Part shown: piece by piece, positions 1 through 10,194 of the stretch | Numbering within the stretch: position 1 is the stretch's first letter | How the letters are laid out: each line of letters starts with the position of its first letter | Source: Streptomyces sp. SUK 48 | GTDB taxonomy: Bacteria; Actinomycetota; Actinomycetes; Streptomycetales; Streptomycetaceae | Direction of reading: 5' to 3' | Length of the DNA stretch: 64,000 bases | Assembly (NCBI RefSeq): GCF_009650765.1 | Contig: NZ_CP045740.1 | Span: 5,618,001 to 5,682,000, forward strand | Made by a program: the position numbers and the translations under genes | Notes under the pieces: generated by a model | The model's input: the letters and a program-made list of their open reading frames with translations, nothing else | The model's database searches: none | What the model was told of the DNA's origin: nothing

Positions 1-2878
1 CTGTGCCGCGCCTGCTGCACGGTGAGGTCCACGGTGTAGTACGTCTCCGCGCGCGGCGCCCGTCCGCCGTACGGCCGGATCGGGTCGAGCACGGTCAGCG
101 GGCCGTCGGCGCGGGTGTGCACGACGGCGGCGCGGCCCGGGGTGGGCACGCCCAGCTCGCGCAGGTCCTGGGTGAGGAACGGGCCCTGGACCAGGTCGCG
201 TCGGGGGTGCCCGGCGGTGAGCGGGCAGTACCAGGCCAGCGGCGGCGCGGCCGGGACGTCGTCGGCGTACAGCGGCTCGAACGGCGGGGCGCCCCGGGCG
301 GCGGAGCTGGCGGCGAACTCGTCGTGGAGCGCGGGGGGACGAGGACGTCGATGCCGGTGGCGGCCTCCGGCAGCCGTACCGGACGCTGCCCGAACGCCAC
401 CCGCAGCCGGGTGCGCTCGGCGAACCGGGCCAGGGCGGGCGGGAGTTCCCGCAGCACGGCGACCAGGACCGGCAGCAGATAGGTGCCGGGCTCGACGTCC
501 ACCCGGTAGCCGTCCGGGCGGACCCGCACCTGGAACCGGCCCGGGGGCAGCGAGCGGGTGAGGATCTCGTGCACGGCGGCTTCGAGGGAGATCCGGGTCT
601 CGGGGCGGCCGGTGAGATCGTCGGTGGTGAAGAGGACCCGGGTGGTGTCCGGGTGGGTGCTCAGGGGGCCGGGGGCGAGTCCGGCGAGGAGCTCGGTGAC
701 CGTCCGCAGGGCCTCGGCGCGGCTGCCGGGCACGGCCGGCGCGGCGTCCAGGCAGGTCAGGACCGGCCCGTTCGGGGAGAGGACCACGGACCGGGCGGTC
801 AGCTCGCCGCGCGGTCCCTGCGCCGCGTGCAGGGCGAGGACCGCCTCGCGCAGCCTCGGCCGCAGTTCGCGCACCTCGTCGGGGGACAGCCCGCCCGGAC
901 CCTCGGCCAGACGCTCGTGCAGGGTGCTGCCCGCCACGAACTCCCGTACCAGATAAGGCTTTCCCTCGGCGAAGCCATGGTCGAGAACCCGCGCGATCCC
1001 CGGGTGCCGCAGCTCCGCGAGGTCCTGGCAGAGCGGGCCGAAGGGTTCCTGGTACTCGCCCGGCGCATACCGGCACACGACGACCCGCGCGTCCCCGTTC
1101 CACGCGTCCTCGGCGACCCAACCGCCGTGCCCCGCCGCCGACTTCCGCAGCAGCCGGTACCGCCCCGCGAGCAGTCCCCCGCCGCCGGCCGGTGCCAGCC
1201 TGCGCACGCTCTCCTCGCTGAGCATGGCGACCGGCTGCCGCTCCACCGGCGTCGGCGCGCCCCCCGGGGACGGCACCACCGCCCGGAACCCGCCCGGCGC
1301 CCGGCCCGCCAGCTCGTCGATGAACTCACCCATCCGGTCCAGGAGTTCGACCGTGCGGTTGCGTTCGGTGCGGGGCAGGCCGAGCAGCAGCAGTTCCCGT
1401 ACGCCCTCCCGGAACGCGTACGACCCGGCCGGTGCCCCCGGCAGCGCGGTGAGCATGCCGCTGAGCACCACCTCGGCCAGGTGCCGGGGCCTCGGGTCCG
1501 GCTCCACCGCGGCCTGCACCAGCCGCATCACCGGCAGATCCGGCCGCCCCAGCGCGAGATGCCCGGCCAGCCGGAACGCCTCCGGGGACGCCGTCGCCCG
1601 GAACCGCAGCACCAACTCCTCGGCGGACAGCCGGCCGACGTCCGTACGGTCCTCCGCGTCGACCGGCAGCGGACGCGTCAGCCGGGCCGCGGCGGCGGGG
1701 AACCGGGTGCCGCCGGGCGCGCTGACCAGCCCGGCCCAGTTCGCCAGCCAGCGCGGCTCGGGCTCCAGCACCGGCAGGACCACCGCGCCCGCCCCGGCGT
1801 CCGGCTCCGGGGTGTCGTACGGCTCCGGGGTGTCGTACGGAGTGAAGGTCAGCGCGGCCGAGGCTGCCGCGGGATGCGGGGCCGCGAGGCGGCCGGGACA
1901 GGCGGGCAACGCCGATTCCCGCCAGAGGTGTTCGGGCAGCGGCTGGACGACGGCCAGCGGCATCCGGCGTGCCCAGCGGTGCAGGGTGGCGTACCACCGG
2001 GTGCCGGCCGGGCCCTCGCGCCACTGCGGGCCCATGCAGTCGCTGATCAGCAGGGTGACGGTCCGGCCGTCGGCGGGGAGCCGCCCGTCGGGGCCGCGTA
2101 CCGTGCCGTCGGCGTCGGCGCGGTGCAGGGTGACCGTGCGGAAGGCGCCCGACTGGGCCAGCGCGGTGTGCAGTTCATGGATCAGGGGCCGCCAGACCGG
2201 CATCGTGGGACCGGCGTCGTACACCAGGTTCAGGCTCAGCCAGCGTTCCCGGGCGGGCCGCAGCACCGGGAGCCAGCGGTCGGGGCCGGCGCCGAGGCGG
2301 GCGATGCGGTCGGCGGTCGCGCGCTCGTCCAGCTCCCGGCCCACGGGCGCGTCGACCCGGCGCCGCAGCGGGCGCAGCGCGCGCTGGAGGGCGAGCGGGT
2401 GGCGCAGCATCGGGGGCGCGGGGGCCAGCAGGGTGCTGTGGGGCGCGTGGTCCGGGGACGGCGCGGGGGAGGGGAGGCGCAGCGGGACCCGGGCGGGGGC
2501 GCCGGGGCGCGGCCGGTGGGTCTCCGCCTCGGGCGGCCGGGGGTGCTGGGCGGGGCCGGGCGGGGACCCCGGCGCCGCGGCCCTGCCGTCACCCGGGCCC
2601 TCGGCGTCCTCGGGGTTCTCGGGGCCCCTGTCGTCCCCGGCGCTCTCCCTGGTCCCCCCGGTCTCCCCGGTCGCTCCGGTGACCGCCGTGCCCTCGGCGC
2701 CCATGTGCCCTGCCAGCCACAGCAGTTCGGCCAGTTCGCGCGGGGTCGGGGGCGCGCCCTGGCCCGCCTCGGCCAGTACGGCGGCGAGGCGGGCCAGGGC
2801 GTCCGGGGCGGCCGGGCGGCCCGGCGCGGTGTCCGGGCGGCCGACGGCGTCCGGTGAGTCCGGGATGTCAGAAGACAT
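1..2878 (-). CDS. vWA-like/pseudokinase protein of a MoxR-trypsin conflict operon (SAV_2336-type); frameshifted, cut by window edge
   Basis: Large multidomain protein whose 3' end lies outside the window. It has a Pro/Ala/Gly-rich stretch (about residues 60-155), a vWA-like fold (about 185-400) and a protein-kinase-like region from about residue 568. The vWA metal site is degenerate: the usual DxSxS reads D221-A-G223-P-T225. The kinase-like part shows no clear glycine loop, catalytic lysine, HRD or DFG, so it looks like a pseudokinase. At the G6 run at 333-338 the frame turns into low-complexity protein; adding one base restores a sensible frame (ALHDEFAASS through VDLTVQQARH) open to the edge. 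The ATG overlaps the end of the MoxR gene by 11 bp, so it is the last gene seen of a four-gene operon. A regulatory or effector role in a conflict system is inferred from gene content only. Confidence 0.72.
333..338. other. G6 homopolymer at the apparent frameshift
   Basis: On the coding (minus) strand the codons run V-L-V-P-P and then lose sense. With seven C instead of six the reading continues V-L-V-P-P-A-L-H-D-E-F and stays open to the window edge with normal Streptomyces codon use. The sequence therefore shows a one-base deletion relative to the likely functional gene. Either a sequencing error in the homopolymer or a real slippage mutation would explain it. Confidence 0.8.
1803..1838. 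repeat. Perfect 18-bp tandem duplication inside the vWA-like gene
   Basis: Two exact, adjacent copies of an 18-bp unit (ggctccggggtgtcgtac). Being a multiple of three, it keeps the frame and duplicates the six-residue unit YDTPEP in the protein, in a proline-rich linker after the vWA-like fold. A recent slippage expansion is likely. Confidence 0.9.
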
Positions 2879-3923
2879 CGGTCTGCGCGCTCTGTCCCAA
2901 ATGGGGCATCAGCCGCTCGGCCAGCTGGTCCAGGGAGCCGGTGTCCAGGTTGCTGGTGCGGGCCAGGTAGATCGCGTTCAGAAGCTGGTCGGTGGCCAGG
3001 TCGCCGGCGCTGGTGCGGTCCAGGAAGCGGCCGATCAACTCCTGCGCGTAGGCGTCGGGTTCGCCCAGATGGGCGCGGACGATGTCGGCGAGGTGCCGGT
3101 CGTCCGGGCGGCGCAGGCGCAGGGTGACGCAGCGGCGCAGGAAGGCGGGCGGGAACTCGCGCTCGCCGTTGCTGGTGAGGACGACGAACGGGAAGGCGCG
3201 GCAGCGCACCTGGCCGCCCGCCACCGGGACCGGTTCGCCGGTGCCGTCGGCCGGGACCCGGGCGGTGCCGTCCGGGGCGAGCCGGGCGGCGCGCACCAGC
3301 TCGGGGATCTGGTACTGGCCCTCCTCCAGCACGTTCAGCAGATCGTTGGGCAGGTCGAGGTCGCTCTTGTCGATCTCGTCGATGAGCAGCGCGCGGGGGC
3401 GGGCGTAGGGCAGCAGGGCGGTGCCGAGCGGGCCGAGGCGCAGATGGTGTTCGATGCCCGTCTCGTCCGGCACGCCGGCCCCCTCGTCCGGCGCCCCGGG
3501 TCCCGCCTCCTGATGCGCGGCCTGCTGCCGGGCCGCGTACAGGCGCGACAGCGGGTCGTAGCTGTAGAGCCCGTCGTGGAGCGTGCTGCGGCTGGTGATG
3601 TTCCAGCGCAGCACCGGGCCGAGCCGCAGCTCCCGCGCGACGGCGTAGACCAGGGAGGACTTGCCGGTGCCGGGCGGGCCGGTGACCAGCAGCGGGCGGC
3701 GCAGATACAGGGCGGCGTTGACCAGTTGCACCGTGTCCTCGGTGGCCCGGTACGTCTCGGCGCGGTGCACCCGGTCGGGGGAGACGGCCGAGCGGTCGGC
3801 ATCCGCGTCCGGCGGATCCAGTACGGGGCCGCCGTCGAAGGCGCGCCAGGGCGGCGGCGGGGGGAGCCGCTCGATGCCGTCGTGCGGCGCGTTCGTACCG
3901 GTGTAGACGGGCCACAGGGGCAT
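2868..3923 (-). CDS. MoxR-type AAA+ ATPase
   Basis: A 351-residue MoxR-family AAA+ ATPase. Walker A is GPPGTGKS at residues 82-89 and Walker B is ALLIDEID with the acidic pair at 182-183. The LLNVLEEGQYQIPEL segment just after it is typical of MoxR proteins and is followed by a sensor-1 asparagine region (VVLTSNGEREF). MoxR ATPases act as chaperone-like remodelers of partner proteins, very often vWA proteins, and here the next gene encodes a vWA-like protein. GGAGAAGAAG lies upstream of the ATG. It sits 34 bp after the trypsin-like gene and overlaps the next gene by 11 bp, so translation is probably coupled. The conflict-system role is inferred. Confidence 0.9.
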   Translation of the reverse strand: MPLWPVYTGTNAPHDGIERLPPPPPWRAFDGGPVLDPPDADADRSAVSPDRVHRAETYRATEDTVQLVNAALYLRRPLLVTGPPGTGKSSLVYAVARELRLGPVLRWNITSRSTLHDGLYSYDPLSRLYAARQQAAHQEAGPGAPDEGAGVPDETGIEHHLRLGPLGTALLPYARPRALLIDEIDKSDLDLPNDLLNVLEEGQYQIPELVRAARLAPDGTARVPADGTGEPVPVAGGQVRCRAFPFVVLTSNGEREFPPAFLRRCVTLRLRRPDDRHLADIVRAHLGEPDAYAQELIGRFLDRTSAGDLATDQLLNAIYLARTSNLDTGSLDQLAERLMPHLGQSAQTDVF

Positions 3924-3957
3924 GGCTTCTTCTTCTCCGTGGTGGGGGTGCGGGCGG

Positions 3958-5871
3958 TCAGTCGACGGGGGAGCGCAGGCTGGCGGCGGGCTCGGGGAAG
4001 CAGCGGGGGTCGTCCCAGAGCAGCTGGAGGTCCCGGGCCCAGTGCCGGTCGGGTTCGTCGGCGGCGTCCGCGGTCAGCCGTAACGAGAGGATGTGGCGCG
4101 GGAGTTCGGCGGGCGGCACCTCGGCGACGGCGGCGGCGAGCTGGTCCAGGAAGACGGTCCCGGGGCAGCCGGCGGCCTCGGCGCGGGGCGGGGCGGCGAT
4201 CGCGGTGGCGGCGGCCGTGTCCCGGGGGCCGCTCCACGCCCGGCGTGGGTCCTCGTACCCGCCCGTGCCGTGTCCCGTCGCCCCCGCCCACCGGGCCGCG
4301 CCGTGTTCCCCGGCGGGGCAGCCCGTACGGGACCACAGCAGGACCGGGACCGGGACGGTGAGGCCGATCTCGAAGTGCGCCCGAGCCGCCGTGGGCGGGA
4401 CCGCGAACCCGGCGAGCCCCGCCTCGCCGTCCCACAGCCGCTTGCGCAGGCTCGGCGGTCGCTCCTGGCTGCCGCACTCCACCCGGTGCACCGGCACCGG
4501 GCGCCCGGCGTCCAGTTTCTGCCACTTCTTGCGCAGCTGATGGCGCAGCCGGTTGCTGCTATGCCGGGCGCGGTCGGTCACCACCAGGGGGTAGGCGCAG
4601 CCCAGCGGGGTGCTGTCGTCCGCGCCGCACTCCCAGTGCGCCACCGCCTCGTTGAGCCACTCGCGCGGCAGCACGAAGGTCACCAGTTCCTCGGCGTCCG
4701 GGTCGAGATGGGCGACGGCCTCGTCGATGCGGTGCTGGACGTACGACCGTACGCCCGAGCGGGGCAGCCGCCGGGTGCCCACCGGGCGGCGCTGCCCGTC
4801 GCGATACGCCGACACCTCCACGGTCACCTGGTCGGGGCCGGCGCCGCTGTGGTCGATCTCCACGACGACCGGCGCCCAGGACGGGGACACCCGCGTGACC
4901 TGCACGGCCTGCGCGACATCCGGGCCCCGCGTGACCTGTGCGGCCTCGGTGGGCCGCGGGGCGTCCGTGAGCCGCTGAGCGTCCGTGAGCTGTGGGGCGT
5001 CCGTGAGCCGCGGGGTGGGCGCGGCCGCCGGTCCCGCGCCCACCAGCTCCCGCAGCCGCCCCGTGAACCGGCCCACCGCCGCCGGGTCCGGCACCTCCCA
5101 CTGCACGTACGCGGCGGCCGCCCCGAGCGTCGGGAACCCGCCCTCGGGCAGCGGCGGCCCGAAGGCGCCCACCGCGTCCACATACAGCCGGTCGGGATCG
5201 CACTCCCGGGCGCCGGGGGCGCTCCGCAGCAGCGCGTACAACTCCCGCAGGACGTCGGCGCGATGGCCCGGGGTGGGCACCAGCTCGCCCAACTCCGGCC
5301 AGTGCCGGGCCAGTACGTCCAGCGGCAGCATCCGGCCCTTGCGCACGTCCGGCGCCTGTGAGGCGGAGGTGACCATGCCGACCACCCGGCCGTCCGGCAG
5401 GGTCGCCGCCGCCCCGCTGAACCCGGCCTCGATCGGCTGCCCGTGCCCCTGCCAGGCCACCAGCTCCAGCCACTCGCCCGCGATCAACTGCCCCGAAAGC
5501 GCCCGGTATTCGGCGAGCGTGCCTTCGTCGTAGCCCGCCGGGAAGCCGTAGGCGAGCAGCCGGGGGTGCGGCTCGGCGTAGGCGGCCTCCGGCGGCGCGA
5601 AGCCGGCCGGTGCGAGACGCACCGCCCGGTCGAGTTCGAGCACGGCCACGTCGCCGGGGTCGGTGAGGCCGCCCGCCCAGCCGCCGTGCGCGACGACCGA
5701 CGCGGACACCTCGCCCAGCTCCCTGGCGTGCGGGAAGACCACGGTCACCGCGTCCGGACCGCCGGCGCGCACGACATGCGCGCAGGTGAGCACCCGGCGG
5801 TCGGTGATCAGGAATCCCGCGCCCACCTCCTGGCCGCAGTGGATCCGGGCATGCCAGGCGGCACTGTTCAT
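3958..5871 (-). CDS. Trypsin-like serine protease with VMAP-C-like C-terminus
   Basis: A 637-residue protein without a signal peptide, so probably cytoplasmic. The N-terminal third is a trypsin/HtrA-like protease with the triad visible: H32 in TCAHVV, D74 in GDVAVLEL and S152 in AGFSGAA. The C-terminal half (about 330 onward, from the LGCAYPLVVTDRAR segment) resembles the C-terminal domain of vWA-MoxR-associated proteins (VMAP-C). The linker near residues 288-315 is a repetitive run of LTDAP/LTDAQ units. I chose the start whose ATG overlaps the stop of the upstream gene in an ATGA, giving MNSAAWHARI; the frame stays open far upstream without coding character. In the modelled class the protease would be switched on by the MoxR/vWA partners; this is inference. 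Confidence 0.85.
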   Translation of the reverse strand: MNSAAWHARIHCGQEVGAGFLITDRRVLTCAHVVRAGGPDAVTVVFPHARELGEVSASVVAHGGWAGGLTDPGDVAVLELDRAVRLAPAGFAPPEAAYAEPHPRLLAYGFPAGYDEGTLAEYRALSGQLIAGEWLELVAWQGHGQPIEAGFSGAAATLPDGRVVGMVTSASQAPDVRKGRMLPLDVLARHWPELGELVPTPGHRADVLRELYALLRSAPGARECDPDRLYVDAVGAFGPPLPEGGFPTLGAAAAYVQWEVPDPAAVGRFTGRLRELVGAGPAAAPTPRLTDAPQLTDAQRLTDAPRPTEAAQVTRGPDVAQAVQVTRVSPSWAPVVVEIDHSGAGPDQVTVEVSAYRDGQRRPVGTRRLPRSGVRSYVQHRIDEAVAHLDPDAEELVTFVLPREWLNEAVAHWECGADDSTPLGCAYPLVVTDRARHSSNRLRHQLRKKWQKLDAGRPVPVHRVECGSQERPPSLRKRLWDGEAGLAGFAVPPTAARAHFEIGLTVPVPVLLWSRTGCPAGEHGAARWAGATGHGTGGYEDPRRAWSGPRDTAAATAIAAPPRAEAAGCPGTVFLDQLAAAVAEVPPAELPRHILSLRLTADAADEPDRHWARDLQLLWDDPRCFPEPAASLRSPVD

Positions 5872-6260
5872 GGGCGCTCGGCGGACTCCGGCCCGGCGGC
5901 GGCCTGACCCGGTACGGCGGGCAGCGCGTCGCCCGCCGAACTCCCCGGCTTCCAGTGGAGCTTGACGACCAGCTGGCCCTCCGCGGAACCCTTGGCGATG
6001 ATCGCGCCGGCCTCGGCGGACATCTTCACCCCGAACTCGATCTCCACCGCGTCGGGCCGCAGGGCGCCGTCCCGGAAGACCCGCAGCGCGGCCTCCGCCG
6101 CCGCCCGCACGCCGTCCAGCGCGCCCTCGAAGGTGGCCGCCGCCCGCACCACCTCGTCGCCGCGCGAGACCAGCCGGGTGCCGGGCCGGGGGGTGACACC
6201 GGCCCCCTCCACCACGACGAGCGCGCCGTCCTCGGTCCTGAACTCCACCAGCTGGTCCAT
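5868..6260 (-). CDS. Trypsin-co-occurring domain 1 protein (CU044_2847 type)
   Basis: A 130-residue protein starting MDQLVEFRTEDGALVVVE. It has the shape of the small trypsin-co-occurring domain 1 family: a beta-rich N-terminus, a central helix (VVRAAATFEGALDGVRAAAE) and a final strand pair ending GQLVVKLHWKP. These proteins are encoded next to trypsin-like proteases in conflict-type loci and their biochemical role is unknown. GAGGGGGAG about 12 nt upstream supports the start. Its TGA overlaps the ATG of the protease by 4 bp, so the two are translationally coupled. It is the first gene of the operon, whose promoter should lie in the 289-bp gap shared with the divergent subtilisin gene. Confidence 0.82.
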   Translation of the reverse strand: MDQLVEFRTEDGALVVVEGAGVTPRPGTRLVSRGDEVVRAAATFEGALDGVRAAAEAALRVFRDGALRPDAVEIEFGVKMSAEAGAIIAKGSAEGQLVVKLHWKPGSSAGDALPAVPGQAAAGPESAERP

Positions 6261-6549: not shown

Positions 6550-9500
6550 ATGACCAGAGGAGCAGTCGGACGCCGGGCGGCGCTGCTGTCGGCGGGGCTC
6601 GTGCTGGCCGCGGTGCCGGTCCCCGGGGCGGTCGCCGCGCAGGGGGCGGCACCGGTGGTGAAGGCCGCGCCGGGGGAGCGGTCCGGGCCCGCCCCGAAGA
6701 CCGTCACCCTGGTCACCGGCGACCAGGTGACCGTCACCGGCCTCGGACACGGCAGGAAGACCGTCACCGTCGAGCGCCCGCCCGGCGCCACCGGAGCCGT
6801 ACGCACGCAGGCGAGCGACGGCGACCTCACCGTCGTACCGGACGAGGCACTGCCCTACCTGCGCTCCGGGAAGCTGGACCGGCGGCTGTTCGACGTGAGC
6901 GCGCTGATCCGGCAGGGACTCACCGACACCCGGGCCGGCTCCCTGCCCCTGATCGTCGGTTACGGCGAGGGCACCCGCGTCCCCGCCGCCGCCCCGGCCG
7001 GCACCACGCGCACCCGGAGCCTGCCCAGCCTGCGCGGCGCGGCCGTCGAGGCGGGCAAGGGGCGTACGTTCTGGCGGTCGTTCACCCGCGGTGACGGGGT
7101 CGACCGGGTGTGGCTGGACGGACGGGTGACGGCCGACATGGCCGGGAGCAACGCCCAGATCGGCACGCGGGCCGCGTGGGACGCGGGGCTGACCGGCAAG
7201 GGCGTCACCGTCGCCGTGCTCGACTCCGGCGCCGACCTGACCCACCCCGACCTCGTCGACCGGATCGGCCGGACCGCGAGTTTCGTCGACGGCGAGGAGG
7301 TCGCCGACCGCGACGGCCACGGCACCCATGTCACCTCCACCGTCGGCGGCAGCGGCGCCGCCTCCGGCGGCAAGGAGAAGGGCGTGGCGCCGGACGCCAC
7401 CCTCGCGGTCGGCAAGGTGCTCAGCGACGCGGGCTCGGGCAGCGAGTCGCAGATCATCGCCGGGATGGAGTGGGCCGCCCGGGACGTGCGCGCCCGGATC
7501 GTCTCCATGAGCCTCGGCTCCAGCGACCCGGGCGACGGCACCGACCCGATGTCCCAGGCCCTCGACAGCCTCTCCCGGGAGACCGGCGCGCTCTTCGTCG
7601 TGGCCGCCGGGAACACCGGCGCGCCCTCCTCCATCAGCTCGCCCGGCGCCGCCGACGCCGCCCTGACCGTCGGCGCGGTCGACCCCGCCGACCGGCCCGC
7701 CTCCTTCACCAGCGCGGGCCCCCGCGCGGGCGACGACGCCCTCAAGCCCGACCTGTCCGCCCCCGGCGTCGGCATCCTCGCCGCCCGCTCCCAGCTCACC
7801 GACGGCAGCGGCTACTACACGACCATGAGCGGTACGTCGATGGCGACACCGCACGTCGCCGGGGTGGCCGCGCTGCTCGCGCAGGAGCATCCCGACTGGA
7901 CCGGCGCCCAGTTGAAGGACGCCCTGATGTCGACCTCCGAACAACTCGGCTTCTCCGCCTACACGGTGGGCGCCGGACGGGTGAGCGTCCCCGACGCCGT
8001 ACGGGCCACGGTGACCGCCACCGGCAGCGCCGACCTCGGCTTCTGCCGCTGGCCCTACCCCGCGGACAAGCCGGTCACCCGGACCCTGACCTACACCAAC
8101 TCCGGTGACCAGGCGGTCCACTTGACCCTGGCGGCCCAGGGCGCCCCGGACGGCGTCGCCACCCTCGCCGACTCCTCCCTCACCGTCCCCGCGCACGGCA
8201 CCGCCACCACCACCGTCACCGGCGACGGCGCCCAGGCGCCGGTCGGCACCACCAGCGGCCAGATCGTGGCCGCCGACGACACCGGCGCGGTGCGCGCGCA
8301 CACCGTGTTCGGGCTGGTCAAGGAGGACGAGCGGTACACCCTCACGGTCCATGTGAAGGACCGCGCGGGCGCCCCCGCGGCCGCCGACCTCACCGTGCGG
8401 CGGCTCGCCCCGGACGCGGACCCCGAGTCCGACCACGTCGACGGCTCCGGCACGCTCGGACTCCGCCTGAAACCGGGCACCTACGCCCTCACGTCGTTCC
8501 TCGACGTGCACGGCAGCCACGGCGCCGACTCGCTCGGCCTCGGCTTCCTCGCCGCGCCCGAGATCGCCCTCGACCACGACCGCGAAGTCACCCTCGACGG
8601 CACCAGGTTGCGCGAGATCAAGGCGGCGGTCCCGCGCCGCACCGAGACCCATCAGCTCCTGATGGAGTACGACCGCGCCGAGAACGGCGCCGACCTGTCC
8701 GGCGCGGTCCAGGTGCCCCTCGCCTACGACAGCGTCTTCGCCGCGCCCACGCCCCCGGTCACGAAGGGCGGCTTCGAGTACCGCACGGTGTGGCGGCTGG
8801 CGAAGCCGCGGCTGGAGGTCAGGGGGATCGGCGAGGCGACGGTCCAGTCGGGCGGCACCCTGACCGCCGGACGGCGGCGGCTCCCGCTGGTGGACGCCGG
8901 CGCCGGCCCCGTGCCCGCCTCCGCCGCCGGCAAGGCGGTGCTGGCCCGCCTCGCCGACGGCGCGGACCCGCCGGCGCTCGCCCGGGCCGCGCAGGACGCG
9001 GGCGCCAGGGCGCTGTTCGTCACGGACGACGCGCCGGGGCGGCTGATGGACTGGTGGGGCAACGACGACAACACCGACCGCCCGCTGCTGATCGCCACGG
9101 TGGACCAAGCGGACGCGGCCCGCCTGCGGGCGTCCTCGACGGTCGACCTGACCGGCACGCCCGACTCTCCCTACGTGTACGACCTGTCCGAGGGCCACAC
9201 CGGGGCGATCCCCGACCACGACCTCACCTACCGGCCCGCACCGGGCCGACTCGCCGCCCTGCACGTGTCGTTCCACGCGGCGCGGCCGACGACCGGCGGC
9301 GAGTTCCGCTACTCCCTCACCGATGCCTTCCCCGTCGGCATCGGCTTCCAGGAGAGCGTCGACCTGCCCGCCGGGCGCACGGACTACGTCTCCGCCGGCC
9401 CCGGCCAGCTGTGGACCGAGTCCGTCACGATCGGCATGGGCACCCTGGAGGAGCGCAGCGGTCCGGTCCGCTACCGGGGCGGCAGCCGGCCCCGGCTCCA

Positions 9501-10194
9501 CTGGTTCCAGCCGGTGTGGCACCCCTGGCTCGGCACCGGGCTCGGCTGGGGCGAGCAGCGCACCGGGGACCAGATCCAGCTGAACACGCCCGGCTGGGGC
9601 GATTCCGGCCCCGACCACACCGGGTTCGGCGATGTCTGGGGCGACAGCGGGATGACCCAGACCACCTCCGTCTACCAGGACGGCACCCTCGCCGACAGCG
9701 AGTCCGGCCCGACCGCGTTCGTCCGGGACGCGCCGGACGACGCGCACACGTTCCGGGTGGTGACCGACACCGCCCTCGACGCGGACCACTGGACGCTCAC
9801 CGCCCGGGGGCACACCGAGTGGACGTTCCGGTCGGCCCGGACACCGGACGACCACGCGACGACGCTGCCGCTGATCAACCTCTCCTACGGCCTGGACACC
9901 GACCTCGCGGGCACGGTGCCCGGCGGGCGGCGGCTGCCGGTGACGCTGGGCGCGGGCTATCTGGCGGGCGCCACCGGGACGGGCACGCTCGGCGGGGGCC
10001 GGCTGGAGGTGTCGTACGACGAGGGCGCGAGCTGGCGGGAGGTACGGCTGACCGGCGCCGGGGCGTCCTGGCACGGGACGCTGGCGGTGCCGGGCGGGGC
10101 GACGTCCGTCTCGCTGCGGGCGTCGGCCCGGGACGACAGGGGCGCCTCGGTCGCGCAGGAGATCGTCAGGGCGGTGGGGGTGAGACAGCCCTAA
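6550..10194 (+). CDS. Secreted subtilisin-like (S8) serine protease, large form
   Basis: A 1214-residue exported protease. The N-terminus (MTRGAVGRRAALLSAGL) is a Sec-type signal peptide ending near VAAQ. A propeptide follows, then the S8 domain with the triad D225 (VLDSGAD), H257 (DGHGTHV) and S430 (GTSMATPH). More than 700 residues of beta-rich C-terminal sequence follow, including a PA-like insert (ARALFVTDDAPG) and a final fibronectin-like part; I cannot assign these further. The start was chosen for GGAAGAGGG about 6 nt upstream and because the signal peptide begins directly after it. The stop overlaps the stop of the convergent carboxyltransferase gene by 2 bp. The protein is probably an extracellular nutrient-scavenging enzyme. 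Confidence 0.93.
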   Translation: MTRGAVGRRAALLSAGLVLAAVPVPGAVAAQGAAPVVKAAPGERSGPAPKTVTLVTGDQVTVTGLGHGRKTVTVERPPGATGAVRTQASDGDLTVVPDEALPYLRSGKLDRRLFDVSALIRQGLTDTRAGSLPLIVGYGEGTRVPAAAPAGTTRTRSLPSLRGAAVEAGKGRTFWRSFTRGDGVDRVWLDGRVTADMAGSNAQIGTRAAWDAGLTGKGVTVAVLDSGADLTHPDLVDRIGRTASFVDGEEVADRDGHGTHVTSTVGGSGAASGGKEKGVAPDATLAVGKVLSDAGSGSESQIIAGMEWAARDVRARIVSMSLGSSDPGDGTDPMSQALDSLSRETGALFVVAAGNTGAPSSISSPGAADAALTVGAVDPADRPASFTSAGPRAGDDALKPDLSAPGVGILAARSQLTDGSGYYTTMSGTSMATPHVAGVAALLAQEHPDWTGAQLKDALMSTSEQLGFSAYTVGAGRVSVPDAVRATVTATGSADLGFCRWPYPADKPVTRTLTYTNSGDQAVHLTLAAQGAPDGVATLADSSLTVPAHGTATTTVTGDGAQAPVGTTSGQIVAADDTGAVRAHTVFGLVKEDERYTLTVHVKDRAGAPAAADLTVRRLAPDADPESDHVDGSGTLGLRLKPGTYALTSFLDVHGSHGADSLGLGFLAAPEIALDHDREVTLDGTRLREIKAAVPRRTETHQLLMEYDRAENGADLSGAVQVPLAYDSVFAAPTPPVTKGGFEYRTVWRLAKPRLEVRGIGEATVQSGGTLTAGRRRLPLVDAGAGPVPASAAGKAVLARLADGADPPALARAAQDAGARALFVTDDAPGRLMDWWGNDDNTDRPLLIATVDQADAARLRASSTVDLTGTPDSPYVYDLSEGHTGAIPDHDLTYRPAPGRLAALHVSFHAARPTTGGEFRYSLTDAFPVGIGFQESVDLPAGRTDYVSAGPGQLWTESVTIGMGTLEERSGPVRYRGGSRPRLHWFQPVWHPWLGTGLGWGEQRTGDQIQLNTPGWGDSGPDHTGFGDVWGDSGMTQTTSVYQDGTLADSESGPTAFVRDAPDDAHTFRVVTDTALDADHWTLTARGHTEWTFRSARTPDDHATTLPLINLSYGLDTDLAGTVPGGRRLPVTLGAGYLAGATGTGTLGGGRLEVSYDEGASWREVRLTGAGASWHGTLAVPGGATSVSLRASARDDRGASVAQEIVRAVGVRQP

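Follow-up and report, generated by a model that had tools for sequence, protein, structure and literature searches.

The closest described relatives of the locus treated here are the VMAP ternary systems of Kaur, Burroughs, Iyer and Aravind (eLife 2020, PMC7159879), which, in the available text of that paper, consist of a VMAP-C protein, a MoxR ATPase whose N-terminus bears two unusual motifs, and a variable-tailed vWA protein in a fixed gene order. The same text places Trypco1 next to trypsin-type VMAPs; it reports kinase and cyclase domains that are inactive and accompanied by a derived HAD domain, as well as cyclase–Band-7–HAD architectures, and it assigns sensing to the VMAP. For related systems of Thiohalocapsa linked to diversity-generating retroelements (DGRs), the accessible part of a later paper (PNAS 2024, PMC10907252) gives a reading in which the variable tail senses and the protease executes, and the two published models disagree about which protein senses. 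In the literature searched, we recognised no experiment on the function of any VMAP ternary system of trypsin type. Here we analysed a 64,000-nucleotide stretch of Streptomyces sp. SUK 48 (the window, C1:5618001-5682000 of a single-contig 8.34 Mb genome). Judged from gene content and order, the four genes at its start almost certainly form a VMAP-type vWA–MoxR ternary conflict locus. The original prediction had offered the locus as an undescribed system; the class, a suspected type of immune system in bacteria, is already described, and the parts are already named in the available text of Kaur et al. (PMC7159879). Our analysis adds to that text a constant address in the chromosome, losses that left relics, exchange of tail blocks between alleles and, in this assembly, an interruption of the fourth gene; address, relics and tail exchange were not found in the accessible text of PMC7159879 or PMC10907252.

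The minus strand carries all four genes, and the set runs from position 6260 down past window base 1 (Table 1). Trypco1 shares 4 bp with VMAP, a gap of 34 bp separates VMAP from MoxR, and MoxR shares 11 bp with gene 4, in agreement with the layout first described, that of four genes on one strand overlapping or at most 34 bp apart. The gene content proposed at that time, a vWA–MoxR–VMAP ternary system, is borne out by profile matches of all four products: Trypco1 to PF19493 (E 1.7e-26) and NF041216 (4.9e-23), the VMAP to the VMAP-C profile PF20028 (1.3e-40, 140 bits against a cut-off of 27) and, in its protease part, to Trypsin_2 (1e-10), the MoxR protein to AAA_5 (2e-9), and gene 4 to SAV_2336_NTERM (NF041121, 3e-131). 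Both the VMAP-C and the Trypco1 profile, run as a check on this content, therefore matched. These matches rule out a chance or mis-called set of open reading frames, and the plus-strand frames of the same stretch are read as shadow frames. VMAP, MoxR and the vWA protein follow in strict 5'-3' order here and in the filled loci (those holding the system) that contain all three, and Trypco1 stands beside the trypsin-type VMAP here; it was undetected in one filled relative (L080). The closest named loci are those of S. murinus, S. griseofuscus and S. malaysiense (VMAP identity 87-92% over the best segment).

The protease triad and the ATPase motifs of the core are intact. The protease triad H32, D74 and S152 is identical in 32/32 aligned VMAPs, and Walker A, Walker B, the sensor Asn and the Arg finger are present in all 47 rows of the MoxR alignment (three duplicates included), which also hold the N-terminal motifs WxhapG (46/47) and PsWRxa (47/47). 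Trypco1 has many residues that are invariant over 51 aligned copies, duplicates counted. No signal peptide was seen in the VMAP, judged by eye without a prediction run. By sequence, the VMAP matched no solved structure up to E 1, and the best PDB match of MoxR was Midasin. The predicted model of VMAP-C is weak (predicted local distance difference test, pLDDT, 29-84 by block), and its fold-search lists were filled by the trypsin domain.

Divergence was assessed in a set of 16 loci as mean protein identity, over 120 pairs unless stated. The flanking genes range from 88.9% (mreB-like) and 87.2% (acyl-CoA synthetase) to 81.2% (carboxyltransferase) and 77.7% (S8 protease, 66 pairs), and the system core from 85.4% for MoxR through 78.6% (vWA region), 77.8% (Trypco1), 77.2% (VMAP-C) and 72.0% (trypsin) to 68.4% for the VMAP middle. 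The low-complexity linkers are lower, with 32.3% in the VMAP (43 pairs) and 51% at the gene-4 N-terminus. For the tail modules, at an overlap of at least 60%, the values are 43.6% for the kinase (55 pairs, without the misaligned row L112; 39.7% with it), and 48.2%, 53.7% and 59.5% for the cyclase-like, Band-7-like and HAD parts (105 pairs each). The core is thus no faster than some ordinary neighbours, whereas the tail is much faster. The vWA and VMAP proteins do change faster than the mreB-like gene and the synthetase, but VMAP-C and the vWA region have little or no margin over the S8 protease and the carboxyltransferase. The make-up of the tail varies as well: once interrupted, cut and duplicate rows are excluded, it measures 567-1194 aa across 36 relatives (with an earlier starting point for L112), and its modules differ, the kinase block being missing in seven relatives (L073, L079, L087, L091, L109, L117 and L160; not clear in L112) and the HAD part missing or cut in six (L076, L098, L099, L101, L103 and L104). 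The VMAP linker, which in the window copy holds repeated LTDA-like words, varies from 6 to 89 residues among relatives.

The tail was examined against what we take to be the catalytic motifs of HAD, kinase and cyclase domains. Judged from the aligned residues, catalysis by the kinase and HAD parts is mostly or wholly lost: the kinase HRD is absent in 28/28 rows, the VAIK Lys is retained in one of the 28, the string DFG occurs in seven of them, no aligned row has it at the catalytic place (L111 has LDF there), and the HAD nucleophile Asp is absent in 30/30 rows. The kinase stretch gave kinase-family matches in relatives. In the vWA-like region two Asp residues are invariant (D195 and D254 of L091; 24 rows), and the putative vWA label of gene 4 comes from family membership and this motif. 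Acidic and aromatic residues occur in a conserved part of the gene-4 N-terminal extension, but inspection of the consensus by eye did not reveal the exact [D/E]xxx[D/E]xxxa spacing. In the predicted gene-4 model the vWA part is of low confidence. The provisional label 'Band-7-like' was given by analogy with Kaur et al. (PMC7159879), and 'cyclase-like' by the same analogy together with the strand and helix order of a relative's predicted model; neither part gave a profile match, and the fold-search lists shown for gene 4 were filled by its HAD part.

The tail also differs from its surroundings in apparent history. Compared with S. griseofuscus, the DNA of the window is 90-97% identical over most of the core, 82-84% at the VMAP linker and gene-4 N-terminus, 73-75% over the kinase stretch and 78-88% from there to the end of gene 4, and the mreB-like gene is back at 97%; the fall at the tail is from 94% to 73%. 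Over this tail, S. malaysiense and the window share 85-91% of their DNA sequence. Synonymous divergence (dS) between the window and S. griseofuscus is 0.43 for kinase plus cyclase-like part and 0.31 for Band-7/HAD, against 0.12 for the flanks and 0.16 for the core. In S. eurythermus and S. achromogenes (L096/L115) it is 0.29 for kinase plus cyclase-like part, 0.07 for the flanks and 0.13 for the core, with Band-7/HAD unaffected at 0.08. These dS values point to import of the tail and not only fast change: in two sister pairs, divergent alleles have taken the place of tail blocks.

In its distribution the system is scattered, and in its position it is constant. VMAP-C of any kind was found in 124 of 150 genomes of the genus, and close relatives of the window VMAP in 9 of 48 other genus genomes, the other matches there being weaker and for the most part limited to the protease. 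Named genomes, when scanned, yielded 37 loci, 36 from Streptomyces and one from Kitasatospora by title. Wherever the contig of a filled locus extends to both sides, the system is flanked by an acyl-CoA synthetase/carboxyltransferase pair on one and by the mreB-like gene, which we take to be Mbl, of the spore wall, on the other. An S8 protease gene occurs at the synthetase/carboxyltransferase side in most filled loci, and the carboxyltransferase was not detected in filled loci L108 and L111. The original prediction had missed this fixed site. A literature search on the S. coelicolor counterpart of the neighbourhood gave nothing.

Sixty further mreB-like regions were fetched, 21 of which hold a carboxyltransferase, synthetase or S8 anchor in the fetched stretch. 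These comprise three filled loci (L160, L174 and L180), 13 empty sites with 169-1944 bases left (measured between match ends), four sites with one relic, namely Trypco1 alone (L127, L141) or a HAD piece (L145, L164), and one (L149) that was not assignable. The other 39 regions, some of which reach a contig end, have no anchor in the fetched stretch and were not scored as empty; L176, one of these, is filled on one side, and its contig ends. Regions were not fetched from G008, G018, G031, G035-G037, G043, G047, G048, G050, G051, G058, G060, G064, G069 and G086 (weaker mreB-like match), from G073 (no mreB-like match), from G084 (contig end), or from G088-G149. The lone Trypco1 genes of L127 (G013) and L141 (G033) are open frames at emptied sites in two separate lineages, and may be harmless remnants or kept inhibitor-like genes.

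Occupancy was placed on a quick flank-gene tree of 47 rows (support by the Shimodaira-Hasegawa-like approximate likelihood ratio test, SH-aLRT, only; L092, L125 and L172 left out), on which it requires no fewer than 12 changes; strongly supported branches force 10 of these. With occupancy labels shuffled, the mean was 12.9 changes, and 166 of 500 shufflings were as low, so that presence is about as scattered as chance. As 28 of the 32 filled rows (20 from the scan of named genomes and 8 from the 48 other genus genomes) were picked because they hold this VMAP, the filled share is no frequency. Sister pairs with one filled and one empty site are L079/L135, L117/L136 and L180/L140, and a relic stands next to a filled sister in L160/L127, L076/L145 and L087/L141 (filled/relic). 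Change counts alone cannot separate gain from loss; the relics favour loss in place. Compared across Streptomyces, as the original prediction had proposed, the locus varies strongly between species and is not universal, and a universal housekeeping operon is ruled out by the scattered presence and the empty sites. A recent mobile island is disfavoured by the constant flanks and the relics, which point to loss in place, though no search for mobile-element genes was made.

On this basis we tentatively favour a mechanism in which the tail senses, MoxR relays and the trypsin-like protease executes. The long vWA-like protein would be the sensor, its C-terminal enzyme look-alikes (pseudokinase, cyclase-like, Band-7-like and dead HAD parts) serving as bait for something foreign; via the vWA-like and helical core, binding would be signalled to the MoxR ring; ATP cycling of this ring would remodel the complex and free the protease of the VMAP, and the freed protease would be the executioner, by growth stop or killing of the hypha. 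Trypco1 might then be an adaptor or a brake of the protease. The tail is taken as recogniser and the protease as actor because a conserved, intact protease and ATPase stand against a dead, fast-changing and exchanged tail. In a variant of this proposal, drawn by analogy with the integrated decoys of plant immune receptors, the dead copies of host signalling enzymes would be bait whose blocks recombine between alleles at a fixed receptor locus, with the constant MoxR and trypsin-VMAP as executioner; we consider it unlikely, but, if true, the site would be an allele-swapping innate-immune receptor locus of Streptomyces. A number of results weigh against sensing by the tail. Tail divergence and dead enzymes fit decoy-effectors equally well as sensors, and within the core VMAP-C and MoxR are outpaced by the VMAP middle and trypsin (68–72%). 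Clear tail exchanges number only two among the 104 pairs with flank dS below 0.40, where pairs sharing a locus of those two repeat the same event. The ratio of nonsynonymous to synonymous divergence (dN/dS) stays below 1 throughout the segments of four close pairs, with a maximum of 0.85, and is about 1.0-1.15 for a small number of tail comparisons (L074/L085, L074/L075 and L117/L118), which does not demonstrate positive selection. The vWA fold is unsupported by profile comparison: gene 4 has no Pfam VWA match, and an hhalign comparison of its vWA region with 29 ordinary vWA domains, drawn from seven genomes, was negative (probability 0.4%, against 0.2 and 0.3% for two other gene-4 stretches used as controls). 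For the vWA-like/pseudokinase protein named at the outset, the NF041121 family and the kinase matches in relatives stand, and the vWA fold is putative. Finally, sensing is placed elsewhere in the available text of PMC7159879.

That published proposal, in which the VMAP is sensor and scaffold, MoxR remodels the complex, and the VMAP trypsin cleaves the vWA protein so that the freed tail domains act as decoys or effectors, seems to us somewhat unlikely for this clade. The low-complexity linkers of the VMAP and the gene-4 N-terminus could be the cleavage sites, and inactive enzymes are reported as common in such tails (available text of PMC7159879). Unlike an expected sensor, however, the VMAP middle is not hypervariable here (68% identity, about 1% one-sided gaps), and the make-up of the tail changes while the VMAP is alignable throughout. 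The triggered self-cleaving response first proposed for this locus is one of two published proposals, and the evidence leans mildly to the other, namely that the variable tail senses and the protease executes, as given for the DGR-linked systems in the accessible text of PMC10907252. A complex outside defence, which would remodel or degrade a host target in regulation or development and be tied to the mreB-like gene and AfsK/AfsR-like signalling, is quite improbable. The mreB-like gene does adjoin every filled locus whose contig reaches there, BTAD matches occur in the tails of 22 of 36 relatives (none in the window copy), and the best PDB match of the gene-4 profile is AfsR (6.9e-36); the terms 'MreB', 'BTAD' and 'AfsR' are absent from the available text of PMC7159879. 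But an mreB-like match (1e-100) is present in 147 of 150 genomes, the weakest being 60-70% identical and perhaps paralogues, as opposed to the few genomes with close VMAP relatives, and the frequent absence of the locus makes a role in regulation less likely; relics, tail exchange and so patchy an occurrence would be odd in a housekeeping partner.

The remaining explanation concerns this strain, in which the system might be decaying. The original prediction had missed both the interruption of gene 4 and its continuation outside the window. The frame inside the window alone would give 927 aa; homology leaves that frame near 332, resumes in another and ends 1018 bases before window base 1, the outside part holding the Band-7-like and HAD-like parts. 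As gene 4 is interrupted in this assembly, the system may be inactive here. Forty other loci were examined, and none of the 38 with the whole stretch (35 distinct genomes) is interrupted, L090 and L119 running into a contig end; absence and relics are, moreover, common at the site. A real mutation is no more likely than an assembly error in a short C run, and the part behind the interruption keeps a dN/dS of 0.34-0.61 against S. malaysiense, which argues against long decay. We regard a real and inactivating interruption in a decaying pseudo-system as quite improbable. The observation itself is confirmed and its earlier interpretation partly supported. The fixed address, empty sister sites and natural tail exchange offer closely matched alleles for a direct test of the sensor question, namely the window strain and S. 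malaysiense versus S. griseofuscus, and S. eurythermus versus S. achromogenes.

Table 1. Features of the ternary locus and its neighbour (window positions; amino-acid positions for parts of the VMAP).
Feature	Position	Strand	Length	Remarks
Trypco1 (trypsin-co-occurring domain 1), gene 1	5868..6260	-	130 aa	
VMAP (trypsin–VMAP-C), gene 2	3958..5871	-	637 aa	
VMAP, trypsin/HtrA-like protease	about 1-190			
VMAP, helical middle	about 190-280			
VMAP, variable linker	281-331			
VMAP, VMAP-C	347-622			
MoxR-type AAA+ ATPase, gene 3	2868..3923	-	351 aa	
Gene 4, first-frame part	332..2878	-		starts at 2878; N-terminal extension, SAV_2336/vWA-like domain and helical extension, pseudokinase, cyclase-like start
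Gene 4, second-frame part	1..332	-		extends beyond the window edge, as far as G000:C1:5616983
Divergent S8 subtilisin-like protease gene	about 6601-10194	+		adjoins the system; named by eye, start unsure, crude gene finder

The S8 protease gene is present or absent among relatives both with and without the system. The same genome holds a second VMAP-C locus (L082:7394-13563, about G000:C1 1281393-1287562), which encodes Trypco2, an EAD2–VMAP-M0–VMAP-C protein and a protein of SAV_2336 type that carries NB-ARC and TPR; no neighbouring MoxR was recognised. Among the relatives, two VMAPs look broken or unfinished, that of L116 (Streptomyces sp. SID486), whose best-match frame starts only behind the N-terminal part, and that of L090 (S. 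misionensis), which has a run of unknown bases.

Against known defence systems in PADLOC the locus gave only partial matches. Similarity to AVAST type 1 (Avs1b protease) and to the RT-Protease entries is weak and limited to the trypsin domain; the Avs1b match (4e-07) covers positions 12-107 of 1924 and is not full-length, and a partial protease match of 20.9 bits against a cut-off of 1500 speaks against membership in AVAST type 1. The DGR-linked VMAP ternary systems of Thiohalocapsa, as far as the available text of PMC10907252 describes them, share with the Streptomyces locus the trypsin-VMAP, the MoxR, a vWA protein with a variable C-terminal part and Trypco adaptors. There, however, variation is produced by a reverse transcriptase acting on a lectin-like domain, whereas here blocks are exchanged between alleles; a lectin-like domain was not among the Pfam matches of the 36 tails, no search aimed at a DGR having been made. 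The VMAP ternary systems of vWA-MoxR subsystem 1, in the available text of PMC7159879, share with the window locus the VMAP–MoxR–vWA order, VMAP-C, the N-terminal MoxR motifs, the trypsin on the VMAP with its Trypco1 gene, and inactive domains (kinase, cyclase, Band-7, HAD) in the tail of the vWA protein; between these systems, so described, and the window locus no difference in kind was found.

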